Shown here one piece after another: positions 44,998-61,823 of a stretch of 64,000 nucleotides of DNA. The notes beneath the pieces were generated by a model. It was not told the origin of the DNA, made no database searches, and saw only the letters and a list, made by a program, of their open reading frames with translations. This stretch comes from Methanocorpusculum sp. (lineage in GTDB: Archaea > Halobacteriota > Methanomicrobia > Methanomicrobiales > Methanocorpusculaceae), in contig NZ_JAUSPQ010000004.1 in assembly GCF_030655665.1 (NCBI RefSeq), positions 192,948-256,947 on the forward strand, written 5' to 3'. The position numbers and the translations under genes are program-made. The number at the start of each line of letters is the position of its first letter. Position 1 is the stretch's first letter.

Positions 44998-45130
44998 TAC
45001 AGTATTAGATGAGAAGCTGATACGTAATACTTTTCTTCATAGGGATTACGCGGTATGATCCCAAAAATAACGTATTATTGGACCATACTTTAATTTCTTT
45101 ACTGGATCTGTGGGAAGCATGAGATAATTC

Positions 45131-45264
45131 ACCGCGAATCTCCGCGAATTCTCGCAAATCGCATTTTTCTTGCATCGTCGTGCTCTGCTCCGGCTTATCG
45201 CCTGCGCAGGAATCGCACGCCGTCTGGAAAAATGCTGGGGAAAAACCGGCGTGCCGGTTTTTCT
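45131..45264 (+). repeat. Left 134-bp inverted repeat flanking the KAP gene
   Basis: 134 bases that recur in inverted orientation at 46881-47014 with six differences. It starts ACCGCGAATCTCCGCGAATT, contains a CTGCGCAG palindrome and ends with the hairpin ACCGGC-gt-GCCGGT followed by T residues. The hairpin end points inward toward the KAP gene. In the other copy the hairpin differs by a paired (compensatory) change, so pairing seems conserved. Confidence 0.93.
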
Positions 45265-45342
45265 AAAAAGAATATTCCTTGCTTTAATTATTTTTTTACA
45301 AAAGTGCTTTCCCCAGAATACACGCATTTTGCTCCATAAGGG

Positions 45343-45355
45343 AGATAAATAATAA
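45343..45355 (+). promoter_or_regulatory. TATA region of the KAP gene
   Basis: AGATAAATAATAA lies about 30 bases before the ATG at 45380, predicting a leaderless or nearly leaderless message. Confidence 0.45.
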
Positions 45356-45379
45356 ACAAGGATGTCCCTATAGATTCAT

Positions 45380-46717
45380 ATGACTCGCCATTTCCCCCCA
45401 TCAACTTTTGATGATGATTTACTTCAGAGAGAAGAATTAGCTGATTATTTGACGAATTTTATCAACTCATCCTATCCATCATCAAATGAAAACTCATTAG
45501 TTTTTGCACTGGATTCCCCTTGGGGTACAGGAAAAACATGTTTCATCAACATGTGGATTGATAAACTGAAAAATCACAAAGAACCCAAATATAATATTAT
45601 CAATTATAATGCTTGGGAAAATGATGACTGTCCTGACGCAATCATCCCGCTCATATGCAGTTTTAGCCAGTTACTCGGGGATTCTCCCGAAGTTGCAGAT
45701 TCCCAGAAGAAAACAATACTCAACGTGATTAAGGTTTTCACTCCGAGAATTGCAAATGGACTCCTTCGCAAATTCACGGGGATTGATGGATCAGAATTAC
45801 TGGAAGCTTGCAGTGAATTCAGGGATATGAATGATCCAAATACCATCTATTCGGAATACACTTCATTAAATGAGAAAAAAGAGAGATTCCGAGAACTTGT
45901 TGAGATTTTCTCCTCTAAGAATGAAAAACTATTGATATTTATTGATGAATTAGATCGTTGCCGTCCTACCTATGCAATAGAAACATTGGAAGTTGTGAAA
46001 CACTTTTTTGATTTGGATAATGTCATTTTCATCTTCTCGACAGATATTGTTCAGTTGAGTCATTCTATCTCAACAATTTATGGAGATATAGATTGTGTTG
46101 GATATCTCCAAAGATTTTTTGATAAACAGATTAAATTACCAGTTCCCTCATTAAATGCTTATTTGGAGAAGAGACTTATTACTAGTAATGGAAAATTTCT
46201 CGAAATGGAAGCAGACTATTTGTCATTACTTGTATCCAGATTGTCTCTCTCTTACCGTGATATAAATATCATCTGTGATGAATATGTGAAATTTTACAAT
46301 CAGAAATATGCTATATCTTTTGATATATGTGGAAACGATTATTATGGTCTTCGCAAGGTGTATCTCTCATTATATTGCCTAAAATATACTCAGCCGCTTC
46401 TTTATCTTACATTTACTAAGCGCGGAACCTGGGGACATGATAAAGAACCTATTTGGCAGAGACTATTTCCAGATGACAAGGATGTGGGAGACTTCTTTTC
46501 TTACTCGTCTGAAGGGATCATGATCCAACCTCTATACCACCTCTTAAATGATACTCCCCAAAGTAATGACGAAACATTGACTAAACGAAACTACTTTTTC
46601 AACGCAGAATATGAGAAAGTTGATCCTAACTCTCTTAAGAAGATGACTATAATTGATGCCGTTTACAACAATATTGAATATAAGAAAATGTTTACTTCCT
46701 CTAGTATATCCAAGTAA
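45380..46717 (+). CDS. KAP-family P-loop NTPase
   Basis: 445 residues. Walker A SPWGTGKT at 46-53; Walker B LLIFIDELDRC with Asp189 and Glu190, as in KAP NTPases. No membrane helix interrupts the domain, so it is the soluble type. The C-terminal 150 residues are not recognised. The gene is visibly richer in A/T than its neighbours and is enclosed by 134-bp inverted repeats, so it looks acquired. KAP NTPases occur in bacterial phage-defence and membrane-associated systems; a defence role here is an inference. Confidence 0.88.
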   Translation: MTRHFPPSTFDDDLLQREELADYLTNFINSSYPSSNENSLVFALDSPWGTGKTCFINMWIDKLKNHKEPKYNIINYNAWENDDCPDAIIPLICSFSQLLGDSPEVADSQKKTILNVIKVFTPRIANGLLRKFTGIDGSELLEACSEFRDMNDPNTIYSEYTSLNEKKERFRELVEIFSSKNEKLLIFIDELDRCRPTYAIETLEVVKHFFDLDNVIFIFSTDIVQLSHSISTIYGDIDCVGYLQRFFDKQIKLPVPSLNAYLEKRLITSNGKFLEMEADYLSLLVSRLSLSYRDINIICDEYVKFYNQKYAISFDICGNDYYGLRKVYLSLYCLKYTQPLLYLTFTKRGTWGHDKEPIWQRLFPDDKDVGDFFSYSSEGIMIQPLYHLLNDTPQSNDETLTKRNYFFNAEYEKVDPNSLKKMTIIDAVYNNIEYKKMFTSSSISK

Positions 46718-46730
46718 AAAATCTTATACT

Positions 46731-46738
46731 CCTTTTTT
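46731..46738 (+). terminator. T tract after the KAP gene
   Basis: A run of seven to eight T residues follows the KAP stop by about 15 bases, before the right inverted repeat. Likely transcript end. Confidence 0.45.
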
Positions 46739-46880
46739 TTGTACAAAACATAGAGCACGAACAGATTTCCATGAGATTTATTTAGGCTTCATACATGATG
46801 TTTACAGGAAACAAAGATAGTAAACCCACCGAATTCGACGGGTTATCTTATCTTAAGAAAGAGAGATGGGCTACAATAAA

Positions 46881-47014
46881 AGAAAAACCCGCACGCGGGT
46901 TTTTCCCCAGCATTTTTCCAGACGGCGTGCGATTCCTGCGTAGGCGATAAGCCGGAGCAGAGCACGACGGCGCAAGAAAAATGCGATTCGCGAGAATTCG
47001 CGGAGATTCGCGGT
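46881..47014 (-). repeat. Right 134-bp inverted repeat flanking the KAP gene
   Basis: Reverse complement of the 45131-45264 repeat, with 128 of 134 positions the same. The hairpin here is ACCCGC-gt-GCGGGT, where both arms changed relative to ACCGGC/GCCGGT of the left copy, keeping it paired. The CTGCGCAG palindrome is CTACGCAG here. The repeat ends 32 bases from the mrp stop. Confidence 0.93.
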
Positions 47015-47046
47015 TTTTAATCTCAAATCAAAAAAAAAGGGGAGAG

Positions 47047-47919
47047 TTATTCTTTGGATTCGATAACGGCGATCAGATTTTCCATCACTTTGTCAACGGC
47101 ATCCCAGGTAGGGCTGGTCTTGCCCGGAGTCCGGACGATAAACGGTCTTCCCTCATCGGCGGCTTTCCGCATCTCGATATCCAGAGGGATCGCGCCGAGA
47201 TAGGGCACCTTATACTGCTCCGCCGCCTTTTCTCCGCCGCCTTTCCCGAAGATGTCGACAACTTCGCCGCAGTGCGGGCAGACCATACCCGACATGTTCT
47301 CGATCACGCCGAGGACGGAAAGATCCATCATCTCGATAAATTTGATCGCCTTCGTCGCATCCAAAACCGCGACATCCTGAGGGGTCGTCACGATCACGGC
47401 GCCTTCCACGTTCGGAGCGAACTGGATGATATTCAGCGCCTCATCGCCCGTTCCCGGCGGAAGATCCACGATCAGATAGTCGAGATCGCCCCATTCCACA
47501 TCGCCGAGGAACTGTTTGGTGGCTGCAGCCTTCATCGGTCCGCGCCATACAACAGGACTGTCGGTTTCATTCAGAAGAAGGGCCATAGAAACGACCTTTA
47601 ACGAACCGGTCACCTTCACCGGCATGATGTGTTCACCGATCGCCTGAAGACGGAGATCTTCGATCCCGAGCATCTTGCCGATCGAAGGACCGTGTATATC
47701 AAGGTCCAAGAGACCGGTCTGATATCCATGGTTGGAAAGCGCATAGGCAAGATTTACCGATACGGTGCTTTTTCCGACCCCGCCTTTTCCGGAGAGGACA
47801 AGAATGACGTGACGTACGTTGATATCAGACTTTTCCGGCATTTTAGGGGTCGATTCGGGTTTCTGTGAACAGGTTTCGCAGTTTTCAGTGCAGTTTTCAG
47901 GACATTTTTCAGTGGTCAT
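47047..47919 (-). CDS. Mrp/NBP35-type iron-sulfur cluster carrier ATPase
   Basis: 290 residues. Deviant Walker A SGKGGVGKS at 43-51, the switch DLPPGTGDE, and CPHC at 214-217 which bridges a 4Fe-4S cluster between subunits. An N-terminal cysteine set (Cys6, 10, 14, 17) resembles the Nbp35 extension. It transfers Fe-S clusters to apo-enzymes, many of which serve methanogenesis. The right KAP repeat lies just downstream. Confidence 0.94.
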   Translation of the reverse strand: MTTEKCPENCTENCETCSQKPESTPKMPEKSDINVRHVILVLSGKGGVGKSTVSVNLAYALSNHGYQTGLLDLDIHGPSIGKMLGIEDLRLQAIGEHIMPVKVTGSLKVVSMALLLNETDSPVVWRGPMKAAATKQFLGDVEWGDLDYLIVDLPPGTGDEALNIIQFAPNVEGAVIVTTPQDVAVLDATKAIKFIEMMDLSVLGVIENMSGMVCPHCGEVVDIFGKGGGEKAAEQYKVPYLGAIPLDIEMRKAADEGRPFIVRTPGKTSPTWDAVDKVMENLIAVIESKE

Positions 47920-48767: not shown

Positions 48768-50441
48768 ATGTCGACACCATTTATAACAATAGAAAATCTG
48801 TGTATGGATTTTGGCGAGAGCGAGCGGGTTCGCGTTCTCGACAATATCTGTCTTGAAATAGCCGAAGGAGAGATCGTAGGTGTAATCGGAAGATCCGGGT
48901 GCGGAAAGACCGTGCTGATCCACCTTATCCGAGGGATCGACACCCCGCCGACGAGCGGCAGGATCGTCTATCACATAGCCCGCTGTCCGAAATGCGGCAG
49001 GATCGAGTTCAGAAGCGATGCAGGGAAACCCTGCTCCGTTTGCGGAGCCATCCTTGCAGCAGAGGATATCGATTTCTGGGCGCCGGAAAACGAAGCGGTC
49101 AAAGCAAAGATCATGGCCCGGACCTCGCTGATGTTCCAGAGGACGTTTTCGCTGTATGGTGACGACCGGGTGATCGAGAATGTTCTCCGGGCACTCGACG
49201 ATATCAACTATCCGGCAAATCAGGCACTATCCCGTGCGGCGGATCTGGTGGATGAAGTCCGTCTGAGCCACCGGATGCTGCATGTTGCCCGCGATCTTTC
49301 GGGGGGCGAGAAGCAGCGTGTGGTCCTTGCCCGGCAGCTCGCCCGCGAACCGCTGTTTCTCTGCGCCGATGAACCGACCGGGACGCTGGATCCAAAGACT
49401 GCGAAGATCGTGCACGAACTGCTGAAGGCGGCGGGAACGGAGAAGCGGATGGGTATGGTGATCACATCCCATTTCGCTCAGGTTCTGGAGGATGTGTGCG
49501 ATCGGGCGGTCCTGATGGAGGACGGACGGATCACGATGGTCGGGAAACCCGAGGAGATCGTGGACGAGTTCATGAAGGGGTGCAAGGATGACTGTACGTA
49601 TGCATGTGTCGACTGCGGGAGTCCGCTCATTCGGGCAAAAGATCTATCGAAGAAGTTTATTGCGGTCGACCGCGGCGTGATCAATGCGGTGGATAAGATC
49701 AGTTTCGAGGTGTATGAGCGGGAGATCCTGGGTATCATCGGGGTCTCCGGCGGAGGAAAGACGACGCTTTCGAAGATGATCGCGGGTCTGTATGAGCCGA
49801 CGGGGGGGACGCTGGAGGTCCGGGTCGGCGATGAGTGGGTGGATATGCGAAAACCGGGGTATGAGTTCCGCGGGAGAGCGAAGAAGTACATCGGTCTTCT
49901 GCATCAGGAGTATGATCTCTATCCTCACCGGACGGTCATGGATAATCTGACGGACGCGATCGGGCTGGAGTTTCCAAAGGAGCTTGCCGTCCGAAAAGCG
50001 GTGATCACGCTTCGGATGGCAGGTTTTACGGAGAAGAAGGCACGGGATATTCTGAACCGGAAACCTTCGGAGCTTTCCGAAGGAGAGAAGCACCGGGTGG
50101 CACTAGGCCAGGTGCTTATCCGGGAGCCGCGGATCATTCTCTTAGATGAGCCAACGGGGACGATGGATCCTATCACGAAGATCGATGTGAAGCATTCGAT
50201 CGTGCATGCCCGCGATGAGATGGATGAGACGTTTATCATCGTTTCCCATGACATGGATTTCGTGAGGGATGTGTGTGACCGGTGTATGTTCATTCGGGGA
50301 GGGAAGATCATTGCGGAGGGACCGACAGCTGATGTGCTCGCAAAGATCTCGGATAAGGAGGTCGAGAAGATGGCGGCGGATCTGGAAGGCGGTTTGGACG
50401 CGAAGCGGACGAACTCAGCTGAACAAACCGAAGGTTTGTGA
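48768..50441 (+). CDS. atwA: Methyl-coenzyme M reductase component A2 (two-domain ABC ATPase)
   Basis: 557 residues from the ATG at 48768, chosen because GGAG at 48758-48761 is six bases away while an ATG at 48762 has no spacing. Two ABC domains: Walker A GRSGCGKT at 41-48 with a zinc-type insert (Cys73, 76, 89, 92), signature LSGGEKQR; then GVSGGGKT and LSEGEKHR. It helps reactivate nickel-F430 in methyl-CoM reductase using ATP. The last residues NSAEQTEGL and the stop are encoded by a hairpin repeat, so the natural C-terminus may have been replaced. Confidence 0.95.
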   Translation: MSTPFITIENLCMDFGESERVRVLDNICLEIAEGEIVGVIGRSGCGKTVLIHLIRGIDTPPTSGRIVYHIARCPKCGRIEFRSDAGKPCSVCGAILAAEDIDFWAPENEAVKAKIMARTSLMFQRTFSLYGDDRVIENVLRALDDINYPANQALSRAADLVDEVRLSHRMLHVARDLSGGEKQRVVLARQLAREPLFLCADEPTGTLDPKTAKIVHELLKAAGTEKRMGMVITSHFAQVLEDVCDRAVLMEDGRITMVGKPEEIVDEFMKGCKDDCTYACVDCGSPLIRAKDLSKKFIAVDRGVINAVDKISFEVYEREILGIIGVSGGGKTTLSKMIAGLYEPTGGTLEVRVGDEWVDMRKPGYEFRGRAKKYIGLLHQEYDLYPHRTVMDNLTDAIGLEFPKELAVRKAVITLRMAGFTEKKARDILNRKPSELSEGEKHRVALGQVLIREPRIILLDEPTGTMDPITKIDVKHSIVHARDEMDETFIIVSHDMDFVRDVCDRCMFIRGGKIIAEGPTADVLAKISDKEVEKMAADLEGGLDAKRTNSAEQTEGL

Positions 50442-50567
50442 GAGGCGGGGTGAGCCGATAGGCTCGCCCTCAGCGGAGGCGGATTGTCGGCGCAGCCGGC
50501 GATCTTAGCTGAGCAAGTCGATAGACTTGCGACTGAGGGCAGCGGGTGAAGCGCCCGATTTTTTTCT
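50414..50567 (+). repeat. Hairpin-module repeat cluster at the end of atwA
   Basis: Three stacked hairpins. First CTCAG...ACAAACC-GAA-GGTTTGT (50414-50444), overlapping the atwA stop. Then GGTGAGCC-GATA-GGCTCGCC (50449-50468). Then CTTAG...GCAAGTC-GATA-GACTTGC...CTGAGG (50504-50538). A final GGGC...GCCC hairpin with a T run (50537-50567) looks like a terminator. Copies occur inverted at 52189-52326 and 61826-61935. Confidence 0.88.
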
Positions 50568-52142: not shown

Positions 52143-52326
52143 GGGTGAATTTCTTCACCCCACTCGCAAGTTTCCTTGGAATACTTGGTCGCAAATCAAA
52201 GATTTGATCGCAAGTCTTCGCTTCGCTCAGCCTTGCTCGGCTAAGGGACCTAAAGGTCCCCGCCCCGCCACTCGCAAACCTTCGGTTTGCTCCGCTGAGG
52301 TCGTCGACTTCGTCGCCAACCCGCCA
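52143..52326 (-). repeat. Hairpin-module repeat cluster before metG
   Basis: Opens with GGTGAA-TTTC-TTCACC (about 52143-52160). Read on the minus strand from the right end, it has a GTCGACGAC block, CTCAG...GCAAACC-GAA-GGTTTGC, a GGGACCT-TT-AGGTCCC-type palindrome, then CTTAGCCGAGCAAGG and CAAATC-TTT-GATTTG. The order and linkers match the 50414-50567 cluster in inverted orientation, outermost hairpin first. Confidence 0.85.
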
Positions 52327-60741: not shown

Positions 60742-61039
60742 GTGCGGGTTGGACGCTGAAAGCGGCCGACCTCAGCGGAGCAAATCTTTGATTTGCGACT
60801 GAGGGCTTCGGTTTCGTGTACGGGGTTTTTTCGGGAGGTACAATTCATCACACGAAATTCACGAAAAAATCCGCGAAAACACGAAAAAGAAAAAGTTTCG
60901 TTGAGTGAAGCGTCCATGGTCCCGTCCCCCAACACCAAAAATCACAAATTCGCAAACCTTTGGTTTGCTCGGCTAAGGTCGTCGACTTCGTCGCCAACCC
61001 GCCAACGAAATGCACGAAAAGGGGGACAGGGGCGGAGGG
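60742..61039 (+). repeat. Left inverted repeat flanking the GxxExxY gene
   Basis: It starts GTGCGGGTTGGA, holds the hairpin CTCAG...GCAAATC-TTT-GATTTGC...CTGAGG (60771-60804), ACGAAATTCACG repeats and GGTTTCGTGTAC, and ends in about 90 bases (60937-61025) that recur almost identically, inverted, at 61567-61654. In that block GCAAACC-TTT-GGTTTGC forms another module hairpin. The match to the right copy is imperfect outside this block. Confidence 0.9.
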
Positions 61040-61115
61040 TTGATTGGTTGGTTGATCTATCGACCTGCATCAACGGGGTGATTTTTATTAGTATAGACCG
61101 GTAAAATAAAAGATA

Positions 61116-61538
61116 ATGCTCTATTACAAAGACGAATCCTATGCAATTTTCGGGGCTATTTTTGAAGTGTACAAAACCCTAGGAAACACGTTCATCGAAT
61201 CATTTTATCAGAAAGCTCTGGAGCATGAATTTAACCTGAGAAATATTCCGTTTGTCCCGCAAAAACGTATCCAGGCAGTATACAAAGGTCAGGATATCGG
61301 ATATTATACCCCGGATTTTGTCTGTTATGATTGCATCATCGTTGAACTGAAGTCACGGGAGAATACCACAGATGAAGAACAAAAACAGGTGATAAACTAT
61401 CTCAATCTCGGGAAATACGACCTGGGAATCTTAGTGAATTTTGGCACATATCCAAAGGTGTACGTGCAAAGGATCGTCCGAAAGGGAGCGTCACTTACTT
61501 CTGTGGAGGAAGAGGAACCGCCGTATTATTTTGGGTGA
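61116..61538 (+). CDS. GxxExxY-family protein, PD-(D/E)XK nuclease-like
   Basis: 140 residues. GNTFIESFYQKAL at 23-35 gives the family name motif (Gly23, Glu28, Tyr31). TPDFVCYDCIIVELKS at 65-80 is a PD-(D/E)XK-type core with Asp67, Glu77 and Lys79. Family members are common in accessory DNA and their target is unknown. The gene sits tightly inside long inverted repeats (77 bases to the left one, 13 to the right), so it looks like cargo of an inserted unit. Confidence 0.88.
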   Translation: MLYYKDESYAIFGAIFEVYKTLGNTFIESFYQKALEHEFNLRNIPFVPQKRIQAVYKGQDIGYYTPDFVCYDCIIVELKSRENTTDEEQKQVINYLNLGKYDLGILVNFGTYPKVYVQRIVRKGASLTSVEEEEPPYYFG

Positions 61539-61551
61539 AGGAAAATCCTTT

Positions 61552-61823
61552 CCTCCACCCCTGTCCCCCCTTTTCGTGCATTTCGTTGGCGGGTTGGCGA
61601 CGAAGTCGACGACCTTAGCCGAGCAAACCAAAGGTTTGCGAATTTGTGATTTTTCGTGTGGGGGGACGGGGGAGGGTACGATGTACACTCGCCTTACAAC
61701 CGATCTATCTATTTTTCGTGTTTTCGTGTGTTTTTCGTGAATTTCGTGTGATGGATGCGCTCATGAAAAAGAATCTCGTACACGAAACCGAAAAAGATCG
61801 TTGACAGCGTTTCCAACCCGCAC
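61552..61823 (-). repeat. Right inverted repeat flanking the GxxExxY gene
   Basis: Inverted match to the left repeat: CCTGTCCCCCCTTTTCGTGC through GATTTTTCGTG (61558-61657) is nearly identical to the left arm, and GTACACGAAACC (61779-61790) and CCAACCCGCAC (61813-61823) match its outer parts. One extra G and a diverged middle separate the two copies. Confidence 0.9.

Follow-up and report, generated by a model that had tools for sequence, protein, structure and literature searches.

A KAP NTPase gene between structured inverted repeats in Methanocorpusculum, at a site that can be empty or differently filled in related species

We examined a 64,000-nt stretch of a Methanocorpusculum sp. genome (contig NZ_JAUSPQ010000004.1, positions 192,948–256,947; hereafter, the window), in which a gene for a KAP-family P-loop NTPase lies beside mrp, between two inverted copies of a structured repeat that we call arms. 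A first-pass annotation made from the sequence alone had placed 134-bp inverted copies at 45131–45264 and 46881–47014, with a single AT-rich gene between them, and alignment bore this out: the copies are identical at 128 of 134 positions, and the KAP gene is the sole open reading frame (ORF) that they enclose. Two of the six differences are, as had been proposed, a pairing-preserving exchange (G/C versus C/G) in the terminal hairpin. A repeat-finding tool lengthened the pair to 145-nt arms with 93% identity and a spacing of 1616 nt (Table 1), and a chance origin of the inverted repeat is excluded because the unit recurs 20 times in the same genome, with E-values down to 1.7e−58. The left-arm hairpin overlaps a site called by a terminator scan. 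The extent originally given to the element held for the inverted pair; on the left side, the element is larger, with a terminal repeat plus ~60 nt of outer sequence preceding the arm, as the other copies also have. Homology to the orthologous flank of relatives ends at position 45038, where this terminal repeat starts, and the mrp stop codon at 47047 lies immediately beyond the truncated right end. The KAP protein matched the Pfam KAP_NTPase model (E = 1.4e−36) and, over most of its length, the PADLOC candidate defence family PDC-S20, and it may act in antiviral defence. Its gene has a GC content of 35%; in a related species (G014), the median over all genes is close to 52%. Where genomes must be told apart, G000 denotes the window's own genome, and G003, G014, and G016 denote other Methanocorpusculum species.

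Table 1. Features of the KAP element and of a second cassette in the window
Feature	Position	Strand	Basis or remark
Left terminal inverted repeat, TAGGGATTACGCGGTATG	45040..45057	+	3 mismatches to family consensus TAGGASTTACGCGGTGTT
Outer (subterminal) region, diverged from family	45058..45119	+	Flank alignment, all copies
Left arm, type A	45120..45264	+	Inverted-repeat detection, arm alignment
Left-arm terminal hairpin, GAAAAACCGGCGTGCCGGTTTTTC, terminator-like on both strands	45240..45263	+	Covarying pair, 82 arms
Cargo: KAP-family P-loop NTPase, 445 amino acids, 35% GC	45380..46717	+	Pfam, PADLOC PDC-S20
Right arm, type A	46881..47025	-	Inverted-repeat detection, arm alignment
Right-arm terminal hairpin, GAAAAACCCGCGTGCGGGTTTTTC, alternative version	46882..46905	-	82-arm covariation
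Right end, truncated, lacking outer region and terminal repeat	47026..47046	.	Comparison with empty site in G003 and G014
Second cassette enclosed by inverted repeats, GxxExxY (PD-(D/E)XK fold) gene at 61116-61538	60807..61792	+	Type III arms 60807-61038 / 61552-61792

A search of this genome and its relatives for the arm, as the first-pass annotation had advised, returned many other copies: 20 in G000, 35 in G003, 43 in G014, and 34 in G016, with fewer or weakly matched copies in G013 and G009. The arm was not found in 12 genomes from other genera of the order, and an exact arm match was absent from the viral contigs scanned. When 84,980 species were scanned for an exact arm segment, the matches came from Methanocorpusculum (M. 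parvum XII and sp. UBA424) and from one metagenome contig filed under Acholeplasmataceae. That contig (L300) carries the Methanocorpusculum arm together with archaeal-looking genes and is likely a mis-binned fragment. Judged by sequence matching, the repeat is confined to Methanocorpusculum among the genomes searched.

Most copies form cargo-free pairs of ~0.5 kb, in which an arm, a loop of 42–47 nt, and an inverted arm follow one another with the hairpins facing each other. Alignment of 22 such pairs revealed an outer region of roughly 75–100 nt on each side, bounded by terminal repeats ATAGGASTTACGCGGTGTT with the 18-nt consensus TAGGASTTACGCGGTGTT. The terminal repeat occurred in eight genomes at 3 to 70 per genome, and a reversed-pattern control occurred at 0–1 per genome. 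Among 46 elements with terminal repeats at both ends, some of them with other interiors, a perfect 6-bp direct repeat surrounded the ends (TAGGA...TCCTA) in 10 (shuffled flanks: mean 1.1, maximum 7) and one matching at five or more of the six positions in 21 (shuffled flanks: mean 5.4, maximum 13); duplications of 7 or more bp gave no signal (7–9 bp tested). The elements, about 150–830 bp long and present in tens of copies, sit next to genes within AT-rich tracts, in many cases T-tracts. The empty element thus combines terminal inverted repeats, a target duplication of fixed length, and a short multicopy form without a transposase, and such elements are mobile elements of the miniature inverted-repeat transposable element (MITE) type.

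Comparison of orthologous sites revealed that their contents differ among species. G003 and G014 have an empty window site, in which the mrp stop codon lies ~55 bp from the next gene, whereas in G016 a SIR2 gene with remains of a related element occupies the same position as the KAP cassette of G000. This SIR2-family gene (L047:1073–2964) is split by a frameshift into ORFs of 86 and 542 amino acids and is probably inactive. At another site, G014:31744–33118 and G016:1122310–1124296 align along both flanks (about 90–95%) and both arms; the alignment breaks off at the inner ends of the hairpins, and the cargo is YdjM in G014 and KAP in G016, where the loop and a partial opposite arm are retained beside the KAP gene. 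The second cassette of the window is orthologous to G014:684772–686430, with flanks 87–89% identical, related arms, and different cargo (GxxExxY in the window, EEP in G014). Furthermore, the GxxExxY cassette at G014:841492 faces an empty site in G016, and at further G014 sites relatives carry other genes (AAA, RloB-like, or OLD-like; labels from ORF reading, not from database matches). Orthologous sites are therefore found both empty and filled, and related arms at one site can enclose different cargo in different species; the empty elements are mobile, and the sites turn over. One Methanocorpusculum site can be empty or can hold, depending on the species, different and mostly antiviral-looking genes between closely related repeat ends. 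To the first-pass annotation the KAP element had looked like a cassette or a non-autonomous element, and this reading survived: the repeats are not restricted to a single place with a KAP gene always between them.

The right arm in the window is 98.5% identical to the arms at the YdjM/KAP site, whereas the host gene mrp is 89–90% identical and the KAP proteins of G000 and G016 share 48% identity, a pattern that fits the exchange of contents among homogenised containers. We favour, with a probability of about 0.7, the reading that a non-autonomous MITE derivative, a member of a genus-specific superfamily and similar to a mobile insertion cassette, carries the KAP gene as cargo, and that such cargo would be exchanged by recombination through the arms, on top of past transposition. 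Alternatively, each cargo may have come with its own pair of arms by independent transposition into preferred hotspots, such as the same T-tract, with no exchange through the arms. The T-tract target preference is consistent with this, as are the general hotspot adjoining the G014 YdjM cassette and the occupancy of the window site, which is filled in G000 and G016, not the closest genomes by nucleotide identity, and empty in G003 and G014. At the YdjM/KAP site, however, arms and flanks are collinear in the closest species pair and only the interior differs; moreover, intact terminal repeats are rare on cassettes. Independent transposition is the less likely account.

The proposal that the hairpin structure is under selection was supported by folding 82 arms with RNAalifold. 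The arms share a terminator-like hairpin whose third G+C pair is C-G in 45 and G-C in 37 and is broken in none, and a pair of the inner stem likewise occurs as C-G (52 arms) or G-C (29), with one arm broken; these counts refer to sequences rather than independent events, and two arm types (A and B) are among them. The hairpin version is not linked to arm type, as the C-G version occurs in 15 A arms. The two hairpins that face each other are not the same in 19 of 20 short elements, where each pairs within itself and mispairs with its counterpart, which argues for selection on two local hairpins and not on one long stem. The arms also folded better than shuffled sequences (z −3.5 to −3.7). One might suppose from this folding and covariation that the long inverted repeat acts at the RNA level, as a transcript stem controlling or processing the cargo mRNA, in the manner of an intervening sequence; but the covariation backs a local hairpin in each arm, the facing hairpins mispair, and the empty and exchanged sites require mobility at the DNA level, so that we consider such a role very improbable. 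A search for a known RNA family among the arms gave no Rfam match above threshold (best E = 0.17, to an unrelated leader).

Of the same 20 short elements, 19 have one A and one B arm, and the remaining one has an unassigned arm. Short stem-loop insertions occur inside some arms, ~56 nt long at arm position 79 and ~48 nt long at 106–112 (G014 841492–842397, which is L072; L085, L091, and L097). In one cassette, the two arms have them at mirror-image positions, as would be expected if arms evolve in concert.

An inverted-repeat scan covering 99.8% of the G014 genome yielded 13 enclosed cargoes, beside the KAP cassettes of G000 and G016. Grouped by eye, the arms fall into at least three families (classic, type II, and type III), and, as the first-pass annotation had envisaged, other cargo does lie between the same repeats. 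In G014, classic arms enclose a 1278-amino-acid PD-Lambda-4-like protein, a DUF4062 protein, a YdjM-type membrane protein, and three GxxExxY proteins; the two KAP genes, in the window and in G016, also lie between classic arms. Type II arms in G014 enclose a complete three-gene type I restriction-modification (R-M) system, a Vsr/HATPase/response-regulator/Dcm cluster, a GxxExxY gene, and proteins of 574 and 1133 amino acids with no Pfam or PADLOC match. Between the type III arms of G014 lie an EEP-family gene and a GxxExxY gene; those of the second window cassette are unrelated to the arms of the KAP cassette. The cargo families matched by PADLOC were PDC-S20, PD-Lambda-4, PDC-S65, type I R-M, Dcm, and Vsr, and a bias of the cargo towards defence is likely, if not strongly proven.

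In G014, six pairs of classic arms face inward across gaps of 0.4–5 kb, and each of them encloses one AT-rich gene; 14 of the 58 G014 genes with a GC content below 41% are enclosed by inverted repeats. A calculation in which all 17 cargo genes were AT-rich (P = 5e−20) was rejected as biased, because the set omitted inverted pairs around ordinary genes, and the six nearest-neighbour classic pairs were used instead. Structured arms that lie beside genes, often in T-tracts, and mostly carry no gene might be mere dispersed intergenic repeats of the terminator type, comparable to repetitive extragenic palindromes (REP) or bacterial interspersed mosaic elements (BIME), that enclose AT-rich genes by chance in variable intergenic islands; ordinary genes do lie inside several of the inverted pairs in G014 (for example, 1236031–1240848). 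This explanation is improbable, since the terminal repeats and 6-bp duplications are features of transposons, every one of the six classic pairs holds an AT-rich gene, and two species have common arms and flanks with different cargo at one site.

In the mechanism that we propose for the favoured reading, an empty element of ~0.5 kb, composed of terminal repeats, outer regions, two inverted arms, and a ~45-nt loop, inserted beside genes and made 6-bp duplications, with a transposase encoded elsewhere presumably acting in trans. A subset of elements holds AT-rich cargo, in many cases genes for defence, flanked by the arms, and the hairpins at the inner arm ends would probably serve as bidirectional terminators insulating this cargo. 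At fixed sites the cargo changes over time, and the most probable route is that a resident copy and an incoming one recombine homologously through their almost identical, dispersed arms. The earlier description of the element as non-autonomous fits these data: no transposase ORF was present inside the elements examined, and no family-matched transposase locus carried the terminal repeat. An autonomous element with the same ends was not found with PF01609, with NF033559, or in the terminal-repeat neighbourhoods examined (from G014, G003, and G032, plus 20 further G032 regions), other transposase families not having been searched. In G003 (C10:9879–11471, L098), one arm is split by ~1.45 kb with a gene for a PF01609 transposase (locus L164); here, an insertion sequence jumped into the element.

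Several observations weigh against cassette mobility and cargo exchange as we propose them. Insertion-sequence-type terminal repeats are recognisable on both sides in only one of the 13 G014 cassettes, that with DUF4062, and on one side only of the window element, and those of the others have diverged or been lost. Neither PF01609 nor the IS1634 model had a match in G014 or G016, and in other genomes the family terminal repeat is absent from the PF01609 loci. Four of six aligned cassettes have two A arms, unlike the A/B short elements, and cargo was therefore not simply dropped into the loop of a short element. The KAP gene is not always found inside such cassettes, as homologues in G004 and G018 are not flanked by a long inverted repeat in the sequence retrieved around them. 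Finally, a control set of 90 random proteins from G014 contained up to 12 with a PADLOC match at 1e−20, so that defence enrichment is weakly tested.

Among known systems, the filled elements most resemble mobile insertion cassettes, such as the qnrS2 cassette of Aeromonas pAC3 (PMC5444012; the term is also used in PMC3129680), in having a passenger gene without a transposase between inverted repeats, kinship to gene-free MITEs, and empty sites in relatives. They differ in that their arms are ~145–250 bp long and structured, belong to three families, and, in the classic family, end in terminator-like hairpins; in that their cargo often consists of defence genes and differs between related arms at orthologous sites; in that no parent insertion sequence was found; and in their archaeal host. 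With the prokaryotic MITEs reviewed in PMC10969869, they share short length, multiple copies, terminal repeats, target duplications, intergenic location, and the lack of a transposase, but a subset carries genes, even a three-gene R-M system, and the terms passenger and cargo are absent from that review. MITEs and mobile insertion cassettes are defined here as in these three papers. Tn3-derived miniature elements (TIMEs), which build mosaic non-autonomous transposons (PMC4133298), are likewise non-autonomous and mobilise other genes. Unlike TIMEs, the Methanocorpusculum elements show no sign of Tn3-type ends, and their duplication is 6 bp. The target duplication of Tn3 is usually 5 bp. A composite transposon was rejected because the arms are not transposase-encoding insertion sequences.

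Integron gene cassettes are exchangeable genes bounded by structured sites. In contrast to these, which have one attC-type site each and tandem arrays, the Methanocorpusculum cargo has two inverted arms and dispersed sites, with no cassette arrays seen, and on this layout of sites the assignment was also rejected, although no search for an integrase was made. A broader notion, that Methanocorpusculum keeps a genome-wide, integron-like exchange system without an integrase, in which structured arms would be recombination docking sites and terminator insulators for swapping defence systems, is doubtful. A term search of the genus genomics paper (PMC10035134) gave no passage on such repeats, and we found no description of these elements in the open-access literature.

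The movement of immune genes between close relatives is usually attributed to large islands, plasmids, or proviruses; the minimal mobile unit here is one gene or operon between two short structured repeats. Because empty, filled, and exchanged sites are all visible within a handful of species, the genus offers a tractable test bed for the turnover of defence genes in methanogens, with a concrete mechanism to test, and whatever lies between the arms offers a route to new defence genes.

Two further sets of inverted repeats were noted. Three in G014 (403502–405176, 1015509–1017183, and 1692199–1693874), with an equal spacing of 1541 nt, were set aside as probably 16S rRNA processing stems. In the window, a 63-nt inverted repeat with 83% identity (50388–50450 and 52263–52325) consists of small hairpin-type motifs flanking ~1.8 kb of ordinary GC content.
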